From assembly GCF_900184935.1 (NCBI RefSeq), contig NZ_FXYE01000002.1:1479501-1543500 (forward strand): a stretch of DNA of 64,000 bases, in the 5' to 3' direction. Within the stretch, counting starts at the first letter, position 1. The number at the start of each line of letters is the position of its first letter. Both the position numbers and the translations under genes were made by a program. The notes beneath the pieces are model-generated. The model was not told the origin of the DNA. It saw only the letters and a program-made list of their open reading frames with translations, and searched no databases. Origin of the DNA: Actibacterium lipolyticum (GTDB taxonomy: Bacteria > Pseudomonadota > Alphaproteobacteria > Rhodobacterales > Rhodobacteraceae). Positions 23,836 to 47,099 of the stretch are shown here, one piece after another.

Positions 23836-24540
23836 TTAATCCGGCGCCAGCATATACCCCGCGCCCCGAACGGTTTGCAGATATCTGGGCTGTTTCGGGT
23901 CAGTCTCTATCTTGCGGCGCAGGCGGGTGATTTGAACATCAACGGCACGTTCCTGCGCCTGTCCTTTGTCACGCCCCAAATCTTCGACCAGCTTGGTACG
24001 GGTCACAGCCTCACCAGGGGTGGCCGAAAAGATGCGCATCAGCTGACTTTCCGTGGCCGTCAGGCGCACCAAATCTTCGCCGCGCCACATTTCACCGCGG
24101 TCAATGTCGTAACGCACAGGGCCAAGGTGCAGTACCTTTGGCCCAACATTTTCCGGCTTTAGCTGTGGCACCCGGCGCAGAATGGCGTTGATACGCAACA
24201 GCAGCTCTTTCGGCTCAAACGGTTTGGCAAGGTAGTCATCGGCCCCCGCTTCTAGCCCTTGAATCCGATCACTGGTTTCGCCTCGCGCGGTCAGCAAAAG
24301 AATTGGCGTCGAGATCTCTTCGCGCAGACTTTTGGTAAGTGAGATCCCGTCTTCGCCCGGCATCATCACGTCCAGCACCAACAGGTCGAACGCCAGCCCG
24401 CCCAACAAACGGCGCGCATGGGCCGCGTCGCGCGCAGCACTGACAAGAAAGCCGTGCCGCACCAAGAATTTCTGCAACAAGCCGCGAATACGTTCATCGT
24501 CATCGACGATCAACAGGTGGGCTTCGGCGTCTGCATTCAT
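23836..24540 (-). CDS. petR: Response regulator, OmpR/PhoB family (PetR-like)
   Basis: A 234-aa two-domain regulator. The receiver domain has the acidic pair in IVDDDERIRG, the phospho-acceptor D57 in LLVLDVMMPGEDG, and K106 in LAKPFEPKE. The C-terminal winged helix ends with DVQITRLRRKIETDPKQPRYLQTVRGAGYML, the OmpR signature. It overlaps the upstream MarR-type gene by 4 bases. This MarR-then-OmpR pair without a histidine kinase is the petPR arrangement of Rhodobacter capsulatus, which is needed for cytochrome bc1 synthesis. The gene name is inferred from that context. Confidence 0.85.
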   Translation of the reverse strand: MNADAEAHLLIVDDDERIRGLLQKFLVRHGFLVSAARDAAHARRLLGGLAFDLLVLDVMMPGEDGISLTKSLREEISTPILLLTARGETSDRIQGLEAGADDYLAKPFEPKELLLRINAILRRVPQLKPENVGPKVLHLGPVRYDIDRGEMWRGEDLVRLTATESQLMRIFSATPGEAVTRTKLVEDLGRDKGQAQERAVDVQITRLRRKIETDPKQPRYLQTVRGAGYMLAPD

Positions 24541-25049
24541 TGCCCACTATCCTTCAGCGTTTGGAAATGGCGGCGCATTTCTGGGTCCATCATGGCCTCT
24601 AGCACTTGGCGGAACCCAACGACAGCGTCCGGGCCAACGGACCGAAACGCCGCGCGCATTCTTTCGCGCTGCGCATCCGAAAGCTCACGTTCCAGCGCAT
24701 CGCCGGTTTCGGTTAGAAACAGGTGGCGTTCCCGCTTGTCGCGTTTACCCACACGGCTTTCGACCAACCCATCGTCAATTAGGGTCCGAAGGACCCGGTT
24801 TAGTGACTGTTTGGTGACCCCAAGGATCGACAGCAGATTGTTCACCGTCGTCCCAGGAGAGCGGTGAATGAAGTGAATGGCGCGGTGATGCGCGCGGCCA
24901 TATCCGTGCTGTTCTAGGATTCGATCAGGGTCTGCGGTGAAGCCGCGATAGGCGAAAAACATCGCCTCGATCCCTTTTCGCAATTGCTCGTCCGTCAGGA
25001 ACAACAGGCCTTCGCTGCCCGGTGTGCCCTGATGCCCACCTTCTGCCAT
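24537..25049 (-). CDS. petP: MarR-family transcriptional regulator (PetP-like)
   Basis: A 170-aa DNA-binding protein. It carries a winged helix with the MarR pattern HHRAIHFIHRSPGTTVNNLLSILGVTKQSLNRVLRTLIDDGLVESRVGKRDKRERHLFLTETG (residues of about 55-118), where the RDKRERHLFLT wing is diagnostic. The start at 25049 is chosen because GGAGGG stands 7 bases before this ATG; an in-frame GTG at 25073 has no ribosome site. petR overlaps by 4 bases. A perfect 15-bp palindrome, GTCAGCCTTGCTGAC, lies 44 bases upstream of the start, and a second one lies further on near ilvE. Self-regulation through it is an inference. Confidence 0.85.
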   Translation of the reverse strand: MAEGGHQGTPGSEGLLFLTDEQLRKGIEAMFFAYRGFTADPDRILEQHGYGRAHHRAIHFIHRSPGTTVNNLLSILGVTKQSLNRVLRTLIDDGLVESRVGKRDKRERHLFLTETGDALERELSDAQRERMRAAFRSVGPDAVVGFRQVLEAMMDPEMRRHFQTLKDSGQ

Positions 25050-25092
25050 CGCGTGTCCCTCCGGGTTTTTCACAACGTTTTCTGGATTTTAT

Positions 25093-25107
25093 GTCAGCCT
25101 TGCTGAC
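25093..25107. promoter_or_regulatory. Candidate operator 1 (GTCA-N7-TGAC palindrome)
   Basis: GTCAGCCTTGCTGAC is a perfect palindrome apart from its three-base centre, preceded by TTTTAT. It stands 44 bases before the petP ATG. It shares its shape and flank with sites at 25161, 41561 and 41636. Confidence 0.65.
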
Positions 25108-25160
25108 GATCCAAGGAATATTCACGCTGCCCGCTTTTTTAGCGCCTTGGCCAATTATAT

Positions 25161-25175
25161 GTCAGTCTTGTTGAC
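25161..25175. promoter_or_regulatory. Candidate operator 2 (GTCA-N7-TGAC palindrome) before ilvE
   Basis: GTCAGTCTTGTTGAC, preceded by TTATAT, is an imperfect copy of the palindrome at 25093, 68 bases away centre to centre. It lies 123 bases upstream of the ilvE start, on the face shared by the two divergent genes. Confidence 0.6.
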
Positions 25176-25297
25176 TTTATCGGAATCAATTGATAGCGAT
25201 CCTACAATTCAGCGCAACATTATGTCCGAAACGGACTTAAGCAGCGCAATTTTTGCAAAACTGGGCGATTGCCCGCGCATTAAGAAAGGATCGAACA

Positions 25298-26164
25298 ATG
25301 GCTGGTTACGATGATCGTGACGGACATATCTGGGTGGACGGTAAGCTTGTGCCGTGGCGGGACGCCAATGTTCACATCCTGACGCATGCGCTTCACTACG
25401 CTTCTTCGGTGTTCGAAGGCGAACGGGCCTATAACGGCAAAATCTTCAAAAGCCGCGAACATTCAGAGCGGCTGAAACGCTCTGCCAACATGATCGACTT
25501 CGAAATTCCGTATTCGATTGATCAGATCGAAGCCGCGAAAGAAGAGGTTCTGAAAACCTCGGGCCTGTCGGACGCTTATGTGCGCGCAATCGCATGGCGC
25601 GGTGCTGGCGAAGATATGGGTGTCGCATCGGCGCGCAACCCGGTTCGCATGGCGATCGCGGCGTGGGAATGGGGAGCCTATTACGGCGACGCCAAGATGA
25701 AGGGCGCGAAGCTGGACATTTCCAAATGGAAACGCCCGTCGCCCGAAACCATTCCATCGCACGCCAAGGCCGCCGGTCTTTACATGATCTGCACCATGTC
25801 CAAGCACGCGGCCGAGGCGAAGGGCTGTTCCGACGCGATGATGTTTGACTATCGCGGCTATGTGGCCGAAGCGACCGGCGCGAACATCTTCTTCGTCAAA
25901 GACGGCGAAGTGCACACGCCTGACCCCGATTGCTTCTTGAACGGCATCACCCGCCAGACGGTTATCGGCATGCTGAAAGACCGCGGCATCAAGGTGCACG
26001 AACGCCACATCATGCCCGAAGAGCTGGAAGGGTTCGAACAGTGCTGGCTAACCGGCACCGCCGCCGAAGTGACCCCCGTGGGCCAGATTGGTGACTATAA
26101 CTTCGAAGTGGGCGCCCTGACACGCGACATCGCCGAAGCATATGAAAAGCTGGTTCGGGAATAA
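25298..26164 (+). CDS. ilvE: Branched-chain amino acid aminotransferase
   Basis: A PLP enzyme that transfers the amino group between glutamate and the keto acids of valine, leucine and isoleucine. The 288-aa length fits the bacterial class IV type. Motifs are HALHYASSVFEGERAYNG, the PLP lysine K157 in IPSHAKAAGLYM, and DYRGYVAEATGANIFFVKDG. The ATG at 25298 follows AGAAAGGATCG. The gene faces petP across a 248-base region with two copies of a palindromic site, so it may be under amino-acid control. A terminator follows at 26192. Confidence 0.95.
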   Translation: MAGYDDRDGHIWVDGKLVPWRDANVHILTHALHYASSVFEGERAYNGKIFKSREHSERLKRSANMIDFEIPYSIDQIEAAKEEVLKTSGLSDAYVRAIAWRGAGEDMGVASARNPVRMAIAAWEWGAYYGDAKMKGAKLDISKWKRPSPETIPSHAKAAGLYMICTMSKHAAEAKGCSDAMMFDYRGYVAEATGANIFFVKDGEVHTPDPDCFLNGITRQTVIGMLKDRGIKVHERHIMPEELEGFEQCWLTGTAAEVTPVGQIGDYNFEVGALTRDIAEAYEKLVRE

Positions 26165-35320: not shown

Positions 35321-38300
35321 TTATTCCGCTGGAACAGCCGTGCTTTCCAAGCTGAGCGGATGTTTCAGGTGAACCAGCATTTCCTTCGGGCAAACCTGAA
35401 GGAAATTGCCGCGTTCCAGATCCCAATGCTGAAGAATATCAGCGGCCTTGCGGCTGTTGGTTTCCGCCAAGTGGCGTTCGATCAGGCCCTTAAGCTGCTC
35501 TTCCCAGTGGTCCACGGTTACGGGGCAGGTTACCAGCGTTTCCATGTTCATCATGCTCTCGCACGCGCCGTCGGGGTTATAGAGGTACGCCATACCACCC
35601 GTCATACCCGCGCCGAAGTTGGCACCGATGGACCCAAGGATAATGGCAAGGCCGCCGGTCATATATTCACAACCGTTGGAGCCACAGCCTTCGATCACCA
35701 CAGTCGCGCCCGAGTTACGCACAGCGAAACGTTCGCCCGCGCGGCCAGCCGCAAACAGGTAACCGTCGGTCGCACCATACAGAACCGTGTTGCCGATGAT
35801 CGTGTTTTCAGACGCAACCAGCGGGCTGGCCATCGGAGGACGCACCACAATGGTACCGCCCGAAAGGCCCTTACCGACATAGTCGTTGGCGTCGCCCGAT
35901 ACTTCGATCTTCAGCCCCGGTGCGGCGAACGCACCCAGCGCCTGACCCGCAGAACCGGTCAGCTTTACCGTCAGGTGGTCGGGTTGCAGGTTGTTGCGCA
36001 TCCCGAAGTTCTTGACGATGTGGCTGGACGTGCGCGTGCCGATGGAACGCAGCGTGTTCTGCACCGCATAGGAAAGCTGCATCTTTTCACCGTCGTTCAG
36101 GAAGCGCGCGGCATCCTTGACGATTTCAGCATCCAGCGTATCGGGCACAGCGTTGCGTGGCTTGTTGCGGTCGTAAACGATCTTGTTCGCGCCATCGACC
36201 GTGATCAGAAGCGGGTTCAGATCAAGATCGTCCAGATGCGCGGACCCGCGGCTGACCTGGCTAAGCAGATCGGCACGGCCAATCACCTCGTCCAAGGAAC
36301 GTGCGCCGATAGAGGCAAGGATTTCACGCACCTCTTGGGCATAGAACGTAATCAGGTTCACAACCTTGTCGGCGTTGCCGGTGAACTTTTCACGCAGGCG
36401 TTCGTCTTGCGTACAGACGCCAACCGGGCAGGTGTTCGACTGGCACTGACGCACCATGATACAGCCCATCGCGATCAGCGCGGCGGTGCCGATGCCGTAT
36501 TCTTCGGCACCCATCATTGCCGCCATGACGATGTCACGACCCGTGCGCAGGCCACCATCGGTGCGCAGCGTCACGCGTTCGCGCAGGTTGTTCATAGCCA
36601 GAACCTGATGCGCCTCTGTCAGGCCCATCTCCCACGGAAGACCCGCGTATTTGATCGAGGTCGCAGGCGAAGCACCCGTGCCGCCGTTGTGGCCCGAAAT
36701 CAGAATGATATCGGCCTTGGCCTTCGCAACACCTGCTGCAATCGTGCCGACACCGGACGATGCAACCAGCTTTACCGTCACTTTACAGCGCGGGTTGATC
36801 TGTTTCAGGTCATAGATCAGCTGAGCAAGGTCTTCGATCGAATAGATGTCGTGGTGCGGCGGAGGCGAAATCAGCGTCACGCCCTTGGTCGAATGCCGCA
36901 GCTTGGCGATCAGGTCAGTAACCTTCATCCCCGGAAGCTGGCCACCCTCGCCCGGTTTCGCACCCTGTGCGACCTTGATTTCAAGCTCTTCACAGTGAAG
37001 CAGGTATTCGGCGGTTACACCGAAACGACCCGAAGCCACCTGTTTGATCTTGGCGGACGCGTTATCGCCATTGGGTTCCGGCGTGAAGTCATCGGGGCTT
37101 TCGCCGCCTTCACCCGAATCCGACTTGGCGCCGATGCGGTTCATCGCGATGGACAGCGTACGGTGTGCTTCGGGCGACAGGGCGCCCAGCGACATGCCCG
37201 GCGTCACGAAACGCTTGCGGATAGAGGTGATCGATTCAACCTCTTCCAGCGGGATCGCTTTGCCGATTGCTTTGATGTCCAACAAGTCACGCAGGTGGAT
37301 CGGAGGGTTCGCCCGCATCGCGGCCGAGAACTTTTTCCACATCTCGTAAGACGACCGGTCACAGGCTGCTTGCAGCATGTGCATGGTCTGCGCTTCCCAC
37401 GCGTGCTTTTCACCGGAACGGCGCGCTTTATAGAAGCCACCGATCGGCAACACGTCAGAGCCGCCTTTCCAGCCGCGTGCGTGCACCTCTTCCAGCTTGC
37501 GCTGGATGCCGCTGACACCGATGCCGGAAATGCGGGAATGCATACCGGGGAAGTATTCAGCACACATCGCACGGGACAGACCGACAGCTTCGAAGTTCAG
37601 ACCACCGCGATAGGACGAAATGACCGAAATACCCATCTTGGCCATGATCTTCAGCAGGCCAGCATCCACCGCCGCGCGGTACCGCTGAACGGCTTCGTTC
37701 AGGGAGCAATCCAGCAGGCCGCGTTCGATACGGTCGGCAAGGCTGTCTTCGGCCAGATAGGCGTTTACGATGGTCGCGCCACAGCCGATCAGAACCGCAA
37801 AGTAATGCGGGTCGATACATTCGGCAGAACGCACGCCAACAGAACAGAACGTCCGCAGGCCCTTGCGCGTCAGCCAGCTGTGAACGGCGCTGGTGGCAAG
37901 GATCATCGGCATGGCGACCTTGTCCGGCCCCTGATGCTGATCCGTCAGAACGATGTGGCCACCACCCGAACGAACGGCATCTTCGGCTTCGGCACGGATG
38001 CGGGCCAGACCTTGGCGCAGCGCGTCCTGACCACCGCCAGCGGCGAAGGTACAGTCGATTTCAACCATCGGCGCGTTGAATTCGCCAACCATTGCGTCGA
38101 ACTGAGCGTTGCCAACAAATGGGCTGTCCAGCACCAGAATTTCCGTCTGGCTGCTGTCTTGGTCCAGCACGTTCTTCAGGTTGCCGAACCGTGTCTTCAG
38201 GCTCATCACGCGGAATTCGCGCAACGAGTCGATGGGCGGGTTCGTCACCTGGCTAAAGTTCTGGCGGAAGAAATGGCTTAGCGGGCGGTACTTTTCAGAA

Positions 38301-39859
38301 AGCACAGCCGATGGCGTGTCATCGCCCATCGAAGCAATCGCTTCTTTCGCGTCCTCGGCCATAGGGGCAAGGATTTGTTCCAGCTCTTCGATGGAATAAC
38401 CAGCCGCGATCTGACGCTTGCGCAGTTCAGCACCCGCGAAAGTCGGCTTTTCGGTAACGTCGGCCAGAACGCTGTCCAGTTCGGTGATCTTACCGACCCA
38501 CTCGCCGAAGGGCTGTGCCTCGGCCAGTTTGTCTTTCAGTTCGCGATCGTGGAACAGAACGCCTTCTTTCGTGTCCACGGCGATCATCTGACCAGGGCCA
38601 AGCGCGCCTTTTTCACGAACGGTTGCTTCGTCTGTCGGGACCATGCCGGCTTCGGAACCGGCGATCATCAGGCCATCACCCGTCACGACGTAACGCATTG
38701 GGCGCAGGCCATTCCGGTCAAGTCCCGCGCAGACCCAGCGGCCATCCGTCATCGCCAACGCAGCGGGGCCATCCCATGGCTCCATCACGCTGTTGCAATA
38801 GGAATACATGTCGCGCCACGTTTCGGGCAGCTCTACAGCCTGCTTGGACCAGCTTTCGGGCACCAGCATTGTCTTGGCCATCGGCGCATCACGACCGGCG
38901 CGCACCAACACTTCGAACACAGCGTCCAGCGCGGCAGAGTCAGAAGACCCCTGTGGAACAACCGGTTTGATGTCATCCGCCAGATCGCCAAACGCGGACG
39001 ATGTCATGCGGATTTCGTGGCTTTTCATCCAGTTCAGGTTGCCCTTCAGCGTGTTAATCTCGCCGTTGTGGGCCAACATTCGGAACGGCTGAGCCAACCA
39101 CCACTGTGGGAACGTGTTCGTGGAATACCGCTGGTGATAGATGGCGAACGCGGATTCGAAACGCTCGTCCTTCAGGTCGGGATAGAATTCCGCAACCTGT
39201 TCGGCCAGCATCATGCCTTTGTAGATGATCGAACGGCAGGACAGCGAACAGATGTACAGCGACCCAACGCCAGCCGCAGCCGCCGCTTTTTCGATCCGAC
39301 GGCGGATAACATAAAGCTCACGCTCGAATGTTTCTTCGTCCACGCCCTTGGAGTTGGAGATCAGGATCTGCTCAATCTCGGGGCGGGTTGCGTTGGCTTT
39401 TTCGCCCAGACACTCCACCTCGACCGGCACGTGGCGCCAGCCGTAGATGTAATAGCCCATGCGCAGCACTTCGGATTCAACGATCGTGCGGCATGTTTCC
39501 TGAGCGCCGAAATCAGTACGCGGCAGGAACACCTGACCAACGGCGACCAGCTGATCGGCGTGGGGTTCGTGGCCTGTGCGACGAATTTGGTCGTAAAAGA
39601 ACGGAACCGGGATCTGAACGTGAATACCCGCGCCGTCGCCGGTTTTACCGTCGGCATCCACAGCACCACGGTGCCAGATCGCCTTTAGCGCGCTGATGCC
39701 GTTTTCAACGACTTTGCGGCTTGGCTTACCATCAACCGAAACAACAAGCCCCACGCCGCAGGACGAATGTTCGTCCTCTTCGCGGTACAGGCCGTTTTCG
39801 GACATGAACTTGCGCTTGGCCTCTTCGGCGGCCACCCATTCGGCGTCATATTTGGTCAT
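35321..39859 (-). CDS. gltB: Glutamate synthase (NADPH), large subunit
   Basis: Glutamine:2-oxoglutarate amidotransferase, alpha chain, the ammonia-assimilating enzyme that makes two glutamates. It is 1512 aa from the ATG at 39859, which has GAGGAG before it. The pro-enzyme has a short leader before the N-terminal nucleophile C34 in HSSCGVG. The central FMN barrel part contains HNGGTGASPATSIKYAGLPWEMGLTEAHQVLAMNNLRERV, and a 3Fe-4S motif is in CIMVRQCQSNTCPVGVCTQDERL. The C-terminal GXGXG repeats (GGLAIILGSIGANFGAGMTGG) complete the protein. gltD lies upstream on the same strand. Confidence 0.97.
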   Translation of the reverse strand: MTKYDAEWVAAEEAKRKFMSENGLYREEDEHSSCGVGLVVSVDGKPSRKVVENGISALKAIWHRGAVDADGKTGDGAGIHVQIPVPFFYDQIRRTGHEPHADQLVAVGQVFLPRTDFGAQETCRTIVESEVLRMGYYIYGWRHVPVEVECLGEKANATRPEIEQILISNSKGVDEETFERELYVIRRRIEKAAAAAGVGSLYICSLSCRSIIYKGMMLAEQVAEFYPDLKDERFESAFAIYHQRYSTNTFPQWWLAQPFRMLAHNGEINTLKGNLNWMKSHEIRMTSSAFGDLADDIKPVVPQGSSDSAALDAVFEVLVRAGRDAPMAKTMLVPESWSKQAVELPETWRDMYSYCNSVMEPWDGPAALAMTDGRWVCAGLDRNGLRPMRYVVTGDGLMIAGSEAGMVPTDEATVREKGALGPGQMIAVDTKEGVLFHDRELKDKLAEAQPFGEWVGKITELDSVLADVTEKPTFAGAELRKRQIAAGYSIEELEQILAPMAEDAKEAIASMGDDTPSAVLSEKYRPLSHFFRQNFSQVTNPPIDSLREFRVMSLKTRFGNLKNVLDQDSSQTEILVLDSPFVGNAQFDAMVGEFNAPMVEIDCTFAAGGGQDALRQGLARIRAEAEDAVRSGGGHIVLTDQHQGPDKVAMPMILATSAVHSWLTRKGLRTFCSVGVRSAECIDPHYFAVLIGCGATIVNAYLAEDSLADRIERGLLDCSLNEAVQRYRAAVDAGLLKIMAKMGISVISSYRGGLNFEAVGLSRAMCAEYFPGMHSRISGIGVSGIQRKLEEVHARGWKGGSDVLPIGGFYKARRSGEKHAWEAQTMHMLQAACDRSSYEMWKKFSAAMRANPPIHLRDLLDIKAIGKAIPLEEVESITSIRKRFVTPGMSLGALSPEAHRTLSIAMNRIGAKSDSGEGGESPDDFTPEPNGDNASAKIKQVASGRFGVTAEYLLHCEELEIKVAQGAKPGEGGQLPGMKVTDLIAKLRHSTKGVTLISPPPHHDIYSIEDLAQLIYDLKQINPRCKVTVKLVASSGVGTIAAGVAKAKADIILISGHNGGTGASPATSIKYAGLPWEMGLTEAHQVLAMNNLRERVTLRTDGGLRTGRDIVMAAMMGAEEYGIGTAALIAMGCIMVRQCQSNTCPVGVCTQDERLREKFTGNADKVVNLITFYAQEVREILASIGARSLDEVIGRADLLSQVSRGSAHLDDLDLNPLLITVDGANKIVYDRNKPRNAVPDTLDAEIVKDAARFLNDGEKMQLSYAVQNTLRSIGTRTSSHIVKNFGMRNNLQPDHLTVKLTGSAGQALGAFAAPGLKIEVSGDANDYVGKGLSGGTIVVRPPMASPLVASENTIIGNTVLYGATDGYLFAAGRAGERFAVRNSGATVVIEGCGSNGCEYMTGGLAIILGSIGANFGAGMTGGMAYLYNPDGACESMMNMETLVTCPVTVDHWEEQLKGLIERHLAETNSRKAADILQHWDLERGNFLQVCPKEMLVHLKHPLSLESTAVPAE

Positions 39860-39870
39860 GGGTCTTCTCC

Positions 39871-40011
39871 TCATCCGCGCAGCGAAGCACCGGCGGGGCC
39901 GATGCTGTGTGTTGCGCTGTTCCATTCGTTGGCCGGAAATCCTTGCCGTGCGGAGGCACCGGCCAAATGGGCCGGGGCGATCCGTAGCAGGGCGAGGTGT
40001 CTTTCCGTCAT
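39871..40011 (-). CDS. Possible 46-aa ORF between gltD and gltB
   Basis: An ATG at 40011 opens a frame of 46 codons ending in TGA at 39871-39873. The TGA falls within TGAGGAG, immediately before the gltB ribosome site and start. The protein is MTERHLALLRIAPAHLAG... ending LRG, with no known motif. A stop so near the gltB start would couple translation of the two. The ribosome site for the ATG is poor, and the space could equally be a plain spacer. I keep it as a weak candidate. Confidence 0.2.
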   Translation of the reverse strand: MTERHLALLRIAPAHLAGASARQGFPANEWNSATHSIGPAGASLRG

Positions 40012-40063: not shown

Positions 40064-41497
40064 TTACTCTGCCGCGACCTGCGCGGGCTGAGCGAGGAAA
40101 TCCAAAATGCTGTCTGCCGCTTCGCGACCGTCGCGGATGGCCCAAACCACCAATGACGCACCGCGCACGATGTCACCCACGGCAAACACACCGGGAAGAG
40201 ACGTTTCATGCGTGCGGAAGTCAGCCTTGATCGTGCCCCAACGGGTCACTTCCAGCGCAGGCTCACCCCACAGGGTTGGCAGGTCTTCGGGTTCAAAACC
40301 AAGGGCTTTGACAACCAGATCGGCGCCTTCGGAATAATCCGCGCCTTCGATCACCTCGGGGCTTTGACGGCCGGATGCATCGGGTGCGCCAAGACGCATC
40401 TTTTGCACCATCACGCTTTCAACACGGTCACCGGTGAAGCCTTTGGGCGCCGAAAGCCAAACGAACTCTACGCCTTCTTCTTCGGCGTTTTGAACTTCGC
40501 GCTGGGAACCCGGCATGTTGGCCTTATCGCGGCGATACAGACACTTCACGCTGGTCGCGCCCTGACGGATCGCGGTGCGCACACAGTCCATCGCGGTGTC
40601 ACCACCGCCGATAACCACAACGCGTTTGCCTTCGGCGTTCAGCTCTCCGCTGTTGTATTCAGCGACATCGTCACCAAAGCTAACGCGGTTAGAGGCCGTC
40701 AGATAATCAATCGCCCGCACGATACCTTCGGCACCAGAGCCCGGCCCCTGAAGGTCACGCGTTTTGTAAACGCCAGCGGCAATCAGAACGGCGTTATGTT
40801 TGCTGCGGATGTCATCAAAACTGATGTCTTCACCAACGTTGCAGTTCAGAACGAACTTAACGCCCGACTTTTCAAGCTGTTCGATGCGGCGCATGACCAC
40901 GTCTTTTTCAAGCTTAAAGCCCGGAATACCATAGGTCAGCAAACCGCCGGCGCGGTCGTAACGGTCATATACGGTGACCTGAACACCCTGCTGGCGCAGC
41001 GCATCCGCCGCGGCCAAACCGCCAGGGCCGGCACCGATGATACCAACGGTTTCGGCGCGTTCGACCGATGGCGTCACAGGCTGAACCCAGCCGTTTTCCC
41101 ACGCCGTATCGGTGATGTATTTTTCGACCGACCCAATGGTCACAGTGCCATGGCCGGATTGTTCGATCACACAGTTCCCTTCGCACAGGCGATCCTGCGG
41201 GCAAATACGGCCGCAGATTTCAGGGAAGGTGTTTGTGGCCTGACTGATTTCATACGCCTCTTTCAGACGCCCTTCGGCGGTCAGGCGCAGCCAGTCTGGA
41301 ATGTTGTTGTGCAGGGGGCAATGCGATTGGCAATATGGCACACCACATTGCGAGCAGCGGCTTGCCTGCTCTTTCGCTTTCTCATCTGCGTATTCCGCAT
41401 AGATTTCGTGGAAATCATGCGCACGCAGATTGGGGGGACGCTTTTCAGGCATCTCCTTGGTCACGTCTACAAATTGGAGCATACGTTCCTTCGCCAT
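40064..41497 (-). CDS. gltD: Glutamate synthase, small subunit
   Basis: The beta chain that passes electrons from NADPH to GltB. The 477-aa length is standard. The N-terminal [4Fe-4S] region has CSQCGVPYCQSHCPLHNNIPDWL and later CGRICPQDRLCEGNC. The FAD-binding site is VGIIGAGPGGLAAADALRQQGVQVTVYDR, and the NADPH site is RVVVIGGGDTAMDCVRTAIRQGATSV. The ATG at 41497 has GGGAG before it. A 220-base upstream region shared with uppP has two copies of the GTCA-N7-TGAC palindrome, which may control both genes. gltB follows after about 200 bases. Confidence 0.97.
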   Translation of the reverse strand: MAKERMLQFVDVTKEMPEKRPPNLRAHDFHEIYAEYADEKAKEQASRCSQCGVPYCQSHCPLHNNIPDWLRLTAEGRLKEAYEISQATNTFPEICGRICPQDRLCEGNCVIEQSGHGTVTIGSVEKYITDTAWENGWVQPVTPSVERAETVGIIGAGPGGLAAADALRQQGVQVTVYDRYDRAGGLLTYGIPGFKLEKDVVMRRIEQLEKSGVKFVLNCNVGEDISFDDIRSKHNAVLIAAGVYKTRDLQGPGSGAEGIVRAIDYLTASNRVSFGDDVAEYNSGELNAEGKRVVVIGGGDTAMDCVRTAIRQGATSVKCLYRRDKANMPGSQREVQNAEEEGVEFVWLSAPKGFTGDRVESVMVQKMRLGAPDASGRQSPEVIEGADYSEGADLVVKALGFEPEDLPTLWGEPALEVTRWGTIKADFRTHETSLPGVFAVGDIVRGASLVVWAIRDGREAADSILDFLAQPAQVAAE

Positions 41498-41560
41498 CGC
41501 GAAATTCTCCCGATTTCCTTAGATCGCGCCTCTCTTACGGTGTCGGCGAAAGAAATAAAA

Positions 41561-41575
41561 GTCAGTTTGTATGAC
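41561..41575. promoter_or_regulatory. Candidate operator 3 (GTCA-N7-TGAC) upstream of gltD
   Basis: GTCAGTTTGTATGAC at 64-78 bases upstream of the gltD start has the same half-sites GTCA and TGAC at the same spacing as the petP/ilvE sites. It is flanked by AAA and by CTAATAG. Confidence 0.5.
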
Positions 41576-41635
41576 CTAATAGTAATTATTTTCGCGTGAG
41601 ACGCCCGAACATCAAGCGTTTTGGGTAAAATTTAT

Positions 41636-41650
41636 GTCAGCACTAGTGAC
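41636..41650. promoter_or_regulatory. Candidate operator 4 (GTCA-N7-TGAC) upstream of uppP
   Basis: GTCAGCACTAGTGAC, preceded by TTTAT, copies the flank and first half of the site at 25093. Its centre is 75 bases from the site at 41561 and it lies 68 bases before the uppP start. Confidence 0.6.
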
Positions 41651-41717: not shown

Positions 41718-42521
41718 ATGTCTCTTTACTATCTCCTAATTGTCGCAGTTATCCAAGGCGTTACGGAATTCTTACCAGTCTCGTCCTCGGGGCACCTGAT
41801 TCTTCTTCCCAGCCTAACGGGCCACGAAGACCAAGGTCAGGTGATCGACGTGGCGGTGCATGTCGGCACGCTTTTCGCCGTCATACTTTATTTCAGGCAG
41901 GACGTTGCCAGCGCATTTGGCGGCTTGCTGCGCCTGATACGCGGGAAAATCGACACCGATGGCGCGCGGCTGGCGTTCTTGTTGATCGTCGCCACCATCC
42001 CGGTGATTCTGTGCGGGCTATTGCTAAAACTCAGCGGGCTGGATGATGCGATGCGGTCGATCAAGGTGATCGGCTGGACGATGCTGATTTTCGGGCTGTT
42101 CCTTTACTGGACCGACCAGAAAGGCCCAACAACGCTGAAAGCCGAAGACTGGTCGCTGCGCCACGCGATTATTATGGGGCTGTGGCAGGCGGTTGCGCTG
42201 ATCCCCGGCACGTCACGTTCGGGCATCACCATCTCTGGCGCGCGTCAGCTGGGGTATAAGCGCGAAGATGGCGCAAAGATCGCAATGCTGATGTCGATTC
42301 CCACGATCATTGCATCAGGCACCCTGTTGGGCGCAGAGGTTGCAATGACAGCCGATGCCGCAGCCGCGCGGGATGGCGCGATTGCGGCTGTGTTTGCCTT
42401 TGGCTCGGCGCTGGTGGCCTTGACGTTGATGATGCGCCTGCTGCGGTCGACCAGCTTCACGCCCTATGTGATCTATCGTGTGATCCTGGGCGTGGTGCTG
42501 TTGTTCATCGCTTACAGCTAA
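41718..42521 (+). CDS. uppP: Undecaprenyl-diphosphatase UppP (BacA)
   Basis: An inner-membrane enzyme that dephosphorylates undecaprenyl diphosphate to recycle the lipid carrier for peptidoglycan and O-antigen. The 267-aa protein has eight hydrophobic segments. The catalytic motifs are VTEFLPVSSSGHL (residues of about 15-27, with E17 and the serines) and PGTSRSGITISGARQLG (near residue 160). The start at 41718 is the only ATG that gives the family N-terminus. It is divergent from gltD and convergent with the NDUFA9-like gene. Confidence 0.96.
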   Translation: MSLYYLLIVAVIQGVTEFLPVSSSGHLILLPSLTGHEDQGQVIDVAVHVGTLFAVILYFRQDVASAFGGLLRLIRGKIDTDGARLAFLLIVATIPVILCGLLLKLSGLDDAMRSIKVIGWTMLIFGLFLYWTDQKGPTTLKAEDWSLRHAIIMGLWQAVALIPGTSRSGITISGARQLGYKREDGAKIAMLMSIPTIIASGTLLGAEVAMTADAAAARDGAIAAVFAFGSALVALTLMMRLLRSTSFTPYVIYRVILGVVLLFIAYS

Positions 42522-43819: not shown

Positions 43820-44749
43820 TTATTTGAGAATCGATTCCCCCGCCGTCGGCAACGCGCTTTGTTTTACACCTGCTTGGCGGACGATCTCGGCTATGTTTGC
43901 CAACTGATCGGACAACGGGTTGGATTTTCGCCAAACCATCCCAATCGTTCTTGAGGGCCGCGGATCTGGCAAACGCGCCAACGAAACCGAGGCAGAGCGC
44001 GTTTCAATCGGCACCGCCATCTCTGGAATCAGCGTTACACCGATTCCCGCGCCCACCATCTGAACGAGGGTGGAAAGGGAACTGCCCTCCATCAACTCAC
44101 GTGGCAGCGAAGACGACATTTTACAAAACGAAATCGCCTGATCGCGAAAACAGTGCCCTTCCTCCAGCAACAGCAAACGCATCTGCTGTAACATTTCGGG
44201 ATTCGGCACGGGTTTGTCGGCGTCCTCAAGCGGGCGCAGTAGAACGAATTCTTCGTCAAACAGCGGCACCTCGACCAACGACGGTTCAGAAATTGGCAAC
44301 GCAACGATCGCCATATCCAACCGCGCCTTCAGCAAATCCTTGATCAGCTTTTGCGTCACCGTTTCGCGCGGGTGCAGATCCAACCCCGGATAATGCAGCG
44401 TAAGAGATTTGATCACCTCGGGCAGCAGATACGGCGCGACCGTGGGAATCACACCAATCCGCAGCCGCCCAATCAGCGGGGCCTGCGTTGCGCGTGCCAA
44501 ATCCTCCAGCTCGTCAACGGCGCGCAGGATGTCGCTTACACGGCTTGCGAATTCTTCGCCCAGCCCGGTCAGACGAATTTGACGCGTCCCCCGTTCAACA
44601 AGGGGCGCGCTGATCAGCCCTTCCAGTTCTTTGATCTGCACGGACAGCGCAGGCTGCGAAATCGAGCAATCCTCAGCCGCGCGGCCAAAGTGGCGATTCC
44701 GGGCAAGTGCCTCAAAATAACGAAGATGCTTCATCGAGATTCTATTCAT
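43820..44749 (-). CDS. oxyR: LysR-type hydrogen peroxide-sensing regulator OxyR
   Basis: A 309-aa regulator that senses peroxide through a disulfide and activates antioxidant genes. The N-terminal HTH is MKHLRYFEALARNRHFGRAAEDCSISQPALSVQIKELEGL. The redox pair is seen as C200 in EGHCFRDQ and C209 in SFCKMSS, the same spacing as E. coli C199/C208. The start at 44749 is supported by AGGA seven bases upstream. It is divergent from katG across a 175-base region, the usual OxyR arrangement. Confidence 0.95.
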   Translation of the reverse strand: MNRISMKHLRYFEALARNRHFGRAAEDCSISQPALSVQIKELEGLISAPLVERGTRQIRLTGLGEEFASRVSDILRAVDELEDLARATQAPLIGRLRIGVIPTVAPYLLPEVIKSLTLHYPGLDLHPRETVTQKLIKDLLKARLDMAIVALPISEPSLVEVPLFDEEFVLLRPLEDADKPVPNPEMLQQMRLLLLEEGHCFRDQAISFCKMSSSLPRELMEGSSLSTLVQMVGAGIGVTLIPEMAVPIETRSASVSLARLPDPRPSRTIGMVWRKSNPLSDQLANIAEIVRQAGVKQSALPTAGESILK

Positions 44750-44777
44750 AAGAAAATCCTATCAGAGCGTTTAGAAA

Positions 44778-44791
44778 ATGCAATTTTGCAT
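44778..44791. promoter_or_regulatory. Palindrome ATGCAATTTTGCAT in the oxyR-katG region
   Basis: ATGCAATTTTGCAT is a perfect 6-bp inverted repeat with a two-base centre, 29 bases from the oxyR start and about 135 from katG. It does not match the ATAG-N7-CTAT OxyR consensus; it is closer to Fur-family boxes of the TGCAA...TTGCA type. It is probably an operator, but whose is not known. Confidence 0.4.
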
Positions 44792-44900
44792 TATCGCCAG
44801 ACTCCTGTAATTTTCGCGCAAGAGGACGCCCCTTCATCCAGAATCGCCACGCAGTTGCGCAACGGTTTTGTGCTGGGGTCGTCTTTCCGTGCCACGATAA

Positions 44901-47099
<2,199 letters not shown>

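Follow-up and report, generated by a model that had tools for sequence, protein, structure and literature searches.

The palindrome GTCA-N7-TGAC, found between petP and ilvE and again between gltD and uppP in the 64,000-nucleotide stretch of Actibacterium lipolyticum DNA analyzed here (the window), is, judging from its sequence conservation, a real and deeply conserved operator. It is probable that one conserved MarR-family dimer, most likely PetP, acts at these operators, where it would repress petP, ilvE and an indolepyruvate ferredoxin oxidoreductase gene and would bind upstream of gltBD in an activator-like position, joining amino-nitrogen and 2-oxo-acid metabolism.

Five copies of the palindrome are present in the window (at 25093, 25161, 40964, 41561 and 41636), compared to a mean of 0.84 and a maximum of 4 in 200 dinucleotide shuffles of the same sequence, and two pairs with copies 40-100 bases apart were observed in the window compared to zero in the shuffles. 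Genome-wide, 83 copies were counted, compared to 26 of the reversed pattern employed as a control. The copy at 40964 lies within gltD, and nothing pointing to a function for it was found. The rest of the genome was covered by pattern searches and single fetched stretches, and the majority of the fetched copies fall in coding frames and probably reflect chance, the exception being one that precedes a GntR-family gene (L287). While part of the genomic copies may thus have arisen by chance, the shuffle counts and the conservation of the sites over dozens of genera rule out this origin for the palindromes as a whole, leaving it virtually no probability.

The operator between petP and ilvE

A protein search of named genomes provided a set of 80 named Rhodobacterales petP loci. 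In 79 of these, exactly one perfect site is located 31-89 bases before petP, nearly letter-identical among loci (TGGAAAGTCAACAAGGCTGACATAAA), and the 487 kb of petP loci contain just 4 further copies. The consensus petP promoter reads TTGGAA-[AGTCAACAAGGCTGACA]-TAAAAT, with the operator filling the 17-bp spacer, and TTGGWW-N17-TANNNT was found on the petP strand at 66 of the 79 loci. On the ilvE strand, an arm of the operator itself provides the predicted -35 (TTGACT-N17-TAGCGA), and TTGAC followed by TA at 17-bp spacing is retained at all but one locus (78/79). Taken column by column, the conservation surrounding the site can be read as a pair of overlapping promoters, one for petP and one for ilvE.

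The window genome and one other (G149) were the sole cases with two operator copies between petP and ilvE. In both, each copy retains one promoter, TTGGAT-CGTCAGCAAGGCTGACA-TAAAAT for petP and TTGACT-N17-TAGCGA for ilvE, and the pair in the window is, by this comparison, a lineage-specific doubling of a single conserved operator. The retention of a copy at each of the separated promoters suggests that control of both genes has been selected for. Pairing as an essential feature of this region was dismissed, given the single site in 79 of 80 named loci. The features of the window at this locus are as follows.

25093-25107, minus strand: petP operator copy, within the predicted petP promoter spacer; 79/80 loci have a single perfect site 31-89 bp ahead of petP, and the promoter fits in the window
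25109-25114, minus strand: predicted petP -35, TTGGAT; TTGG shows little or no variation among the 79 loci
25086-25091, minus strand: predicted petP -10, TAAAAT; TA does not vary among the 79 loci, most of which have TANNNT at 17 bp
25161-25175, plus strand: ilvE operator copy, the right arm forming part of the predicted ilvE -35; second copy limited to the window genome and G149
25171-25176, plus strand: predicted ilvE -35, TTGACT; TTGAC, then TA at 17-bp spacing, in 78/79 loci
25194-25199, plus strand: predicted ilvE -10, TAGCGA; TA invariant in 79 loci
24537-25049, minus strand: petP, MarR-family regulator and proposed binder of the operators; matches to the Pfam models MarR_2 and MarR exceed the cut-off, and the gene is syntenic with R. 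capsulatus petP
23836-24540, minus strand: petR, encoding an OmpR-type response regulator and overlapping the end of petP; Response_reg and Trans_reg_C
25298-26164, plus strand: ilvE, branched-chain amino-acid aminotransferase; NF005726 and TIGR01122 above cut-off

The predicted ilvE leader also contains another conserved palindrome, AGGTCCG-N3-CGGACATAA (25224-25236 in the window, GTCCGAAACGGAC). It is present at the same offset in 43 of the 79 named petP/ilvE regions with TTGCGC boxes at its flanks, and in several genera this type of palindrome takes the place of the distal gltD site.

The paired sites upstream of gltD

The sequence-only reading had placed the palindrome twice between divergent gltD (minus strand, ATG at 41497) and uppP (plus strand, ATG at 41718), and both 15-mers are indeed found there, at 41561 and 41636, 75 bases apart. 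Its report that the second of these matches the petP/ilvE site in its flank was borne out as well, with TTTATGTCAG common to 41636 and 25093. Of 47 distinct regions upstream of gltD in the family, 44 contain the proximal site (consensus WWTAGGTCAGYATTGCTGACTTTT) with at most one mismatch, and in 33 of these it is perfect. Counted from the site start, a TA occupies exactly +38/+39 in 43 of the 44 aligned regions; we read this TA as the first two bases of the gltD -10, and the hexamer 17 bp upstream of this TA, TTTTMT, is a poor -35. Because the predicted -10 is held at this fixed distance, the center of the proximal site would lie near -43.

Distal perfect sites occur in 9 genera, every one of them 74 or 75 bp from the proximal site. 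In other genera, the distal position is occupied by GGTCCG..CGGACC or GGTAA..TTACC palindromes, and some genera (L034, L040 and L048) have an additional site 41 bp away. The earlier proposal of a shared regulon, which the lack of the pattern in orthologous regions would have counted against, is supported by these data, as the pattern is kept in 79/80 petP/ilvE and 44/47 gltD regions. In the window, the locus contains the following features.

41561-41575, minus strand: proximal gltBD operator, TATTAGGTCATACAAACTGACTTTTAT on the gltD strand; center at about -43 from the predicted gltD transcription start, 44/47 regions, 33 perfect
41636-41650, minus strand: distal gltBD operator, seven helical turns (75 bp) away from the proximal one; perfect in 9 genera at 74/75 bp, close to uppP and apparently not tied to it
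41532-41537, minus strand: predicted gltD -10, TAAGAG; TA at +38/+39 in 43/44 aligned regions
40064-41497, minus strand: gltD, which comes first in gltDB and encodes the small subunit of glutamate synthase; TIGR01318 above cut-off
35321-39925, minus strand: gltB, located downstream of gltD and encoding the large subunit of glutamate synthase; NF008730 above cut-off, the coordinate being the frame start, with the true start probably internal
41718-42521, plus strand: uppP, undecaprenyl-diphosphatase, a neighbor and probably not a target (orientation test); NF001393 above cut-off

The pair might instead represent one site for each divergent promoter, linking nitrogen metabolism to the envelope through uppP. 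In the window, each site does lie ~64-68 bp upstream of one start codon, that of gltD or that of uppP, and of the 48 family loci examined, 34 have a divergent uppP. However, four loci (L011, L014, L022 and L023) retain a perfect pair at 74-75 bp even though their uppP-like gene (29-32% identity) is located upstream on the same strand. Since the sites are retained where this gene is not divergent, they belong to gltBD, and the conserved gltD pair is, by this orientation test, independent of uppP. We therefore consider one site per promoter improbable, and the envelope link put forward in the sequence-only reading is not supported. The same reading had treated the occurrence of pairs in divergent regions as a common property of both loci; this stands for gltD insofar as the 74-75 bp pair is conserved, but not for petP/ilvE, where the pair is confined to the window genome and G149.

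Several further observations were made at gltD loci. In some family genomes, the encoded GltD is a distant one (35-38% identity) whose gene lacks an upstream operator (L100-L104), and two of them, G054 and G136, still have petP but carry the distant gltD without the operator, indicating that the operator goes with the native gltD. Near uppP, the window also contains a LysR-type gene and a divergent catalase-peroxidase-like gene (43820-47099; translations read by eye only). An array of 28-bp tandem repeats at L009 (G042:C14:47159-47285), which includes GTCAGTTTGCCTGAC, is probably unrelated.

Further candidate targets and other families

The extended pattern TADGTCA-N7-TGACHTA is present in 13 of 30 family genomes, and in 10 of the 30, representing 10 genera, it precedes the same fused indolepyruvate ferredoxin oxidoreductase gene. 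The predicted promoter of this gene displays the petP geometry, with a -35 (TTTGTA, TTGGTA or TTTATA), 17 bp holding the operator, and a -10 of the form TANNNT. The site of the window genome is located at G000:C10:271729-271749 (L250), and those of the other nine genera are within L249-L263. The oxidoreductase gene is divergent from a LysR-type gene. A site was also found 63-70 bp upstream of a PLP aminotransferase gene in 8 of 9 orthologues; this case is absent from the window genome. Both targets fit the theme of nitrogen and branched-chain amino-acid metabolism suggested earlier from the window. Rare neighbors of the site include an ANTAR regulator (L274), a LysE-type exporter (L279) and YitT proteins (L265 and L278). 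At L294, L296, L297 and L298, the aminotransferase gene is divergent from a PdhR-like GntR gene, and a second palindrome, ATTGGTCA-N7-TGACCA, is located on the GntR side and is possibly the regulator's own site.

In other alphaproteobacterial families, a perfect site precedes petP at 10 of 27 loci, the remaining 17 promoters having no recognizable site, and precedes gltD at 6 of 24 loci with a clearly orthologous GltD. A matrix made from the petP sites alone placed 10 of the 24 outside gltD upstream regions above the 95% background, and one made from the gltD sites alone did so for 10 of the 27 outside petP upstream regions, with ~1 expected in each case. Both the site counts and these cross-matrix scans indicate that the presence of the same operator at petP/ilvE and gltD holds beyond the family.

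PetP as the candidate regulator

The PetP protein of the window has a MarR winged-helix domain (PF12802, 48.9 bits; PF01047, 31.4 bits; both above cut-off), its PDB matches are MarR proteins, and the recognition helix TKQSL(N/S)RVL is near-invariant among these proteins. MarR autoregulators have a conserved palindrome in the spacer of their own promoter, and a palindromic operator is present in petP's own promoter at 79 of 80 loci. Because the site fills this spacer, PetP is the best candidate, and we infer that it is most likely the protein that binds the operators.

Two related regulators instead of one are possible, since petP sites (TGACATAAAA) and gltD sites (TAGGTCA, TGACTTTT) are flanked differently, and since four incomplete genomes in which petP was not detected (G019, G028, G147 and G195; 73-93% complete) retain the gltD site. 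Genomes in which petP was not detected are either incomplete or encode a different gltD. The 17 outside petP promoters with no recognizable site, and the occurrence of the perfect oxidoreductase site in just 10 of 30 genomes, also count against a single conserved regulator. With two regulators, PetP would act at petP/ilvE, and gltD and the metabolic genes would be served by another protein with similar half-sites, whether MarR-like or not, and the differing inner-base preferences of the two classes of site would be consistent with this. Nevertheless, the two classes have a common 15-bp architecture, the matrix from each recognizes the other in other families, and the oxidoreductase gene unites gltD-like flanks with petP-like geometry, so that we regard a second regulator as rather unlikely. 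An Lrp/AsnC-type regulator, which the sequence-only reading had named beside PetP, would account for a target set resembling that of enteric Lrp and for the multiple phased sites typical of Lrp. In contrast, the sharp 15-bp palindrome within the spacer of the petP promoter is the kind of operator that a MarR autoregulator has, and an unsystematic look noticed no AsnC-type gene with the sites. Of the two proteins originally proposed, PetP is retained; no evidence for an Lrp-like one was found in this unsystematic look, and we consider it very improbable.

With a single regulator, most likely PetP, the sign of regulation at each promoter can be inferred from the position of the operator. Binding within the 17-bp spacer would block RNA polymerase, resulting in autorepression of petP and repression of the oxidoreductase gene, given that the operator occupies the spacer in both. 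The ilvE gene would be repressed in step with petP, because the operator overlaps the predicted ilvE -35, and in the window genome the doubled operator would provide each of the two promoters with its own copy. At gltBD, the -43 position, the weak -35 and the rigid distance to the -10 fit activation of glutamate synthase, aided by cooperative binding at two sites that would lie on one face of the DNA, as 74-75 bp corresponds to seven helical turns. Activation is the weakest step in this scheme, and we favor it only somewhat over the opposite sign. The regulon would couple transamination and 2-oxo-acid use to glutamate supply, and the ligand is presumably an amino acid or a 2-oxo acid. More tentatively, PetP might serve in Alphaproteobacteria, throughout the family and in part of the class, as a global regulator of amino-nitrogen and 2-oxo-acid metabolism, equivalent to Lrp though not related to it, combining repression from the promoter spacer with activation of gltBD through two sites seven helical turns apart.

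The sites yield a concrete candidate regulon, consisting of petPR, ilvE, the indolepyruvate oxidoreductase gene, gltBD and an aminotransferase gene, and they provide PetP, a long-known and unexplained regulator, with a testable role and mechanism. If true, this would explain how glutamate synthesis is coupled to the use of amino acids and keto acids in these abundant marine and phototrophic bacteria. In the searchable literature, we found no PetP target set, operator or metabolic regulon, and no gltBD regulon of this kind in these bacteria.

The petP gene has long been known beside the cytochrome bc1 genes of Rhodobacter, and to our knowledge the sole known link of PetP is to petR and this bc1 locus. 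Rhodobacter capsulatus PetP is an orthologue (83% identity), encoded with ilvE to one side of it and petR, Rieske and cytochrome b genes to the other (L160); the linkage of petP-petR and ilvE is the same in the window, whereas the bc1 genes do not follow petR there. Enteric Lrp connects glutamate synthase with branched-chain amino-acid metabolism, and its targets are thus similar to those proposed for PetP, but it belongs to another protein family and employs another type of operator. Control of gltBD by NtrC has been reported in some alphaproteobacteria (PMC5343134), whereas the conserved element described here is GTCA-N7-TGAC, common to petP. A close likeness is also seen with autoregulated MarR-family repressors of the MarR, SlyA and HpaR type, which are also winged-helix proteins matching MarR Pfam models with a palindromic operator in their own promoter. 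PetP would differ from these in its amino-nitrogen and 2-oxo-acid targets, in the activator-like position at gltBD with a second phased site, and in the use of one operator common to the overlapping petP and ilvE promoters.
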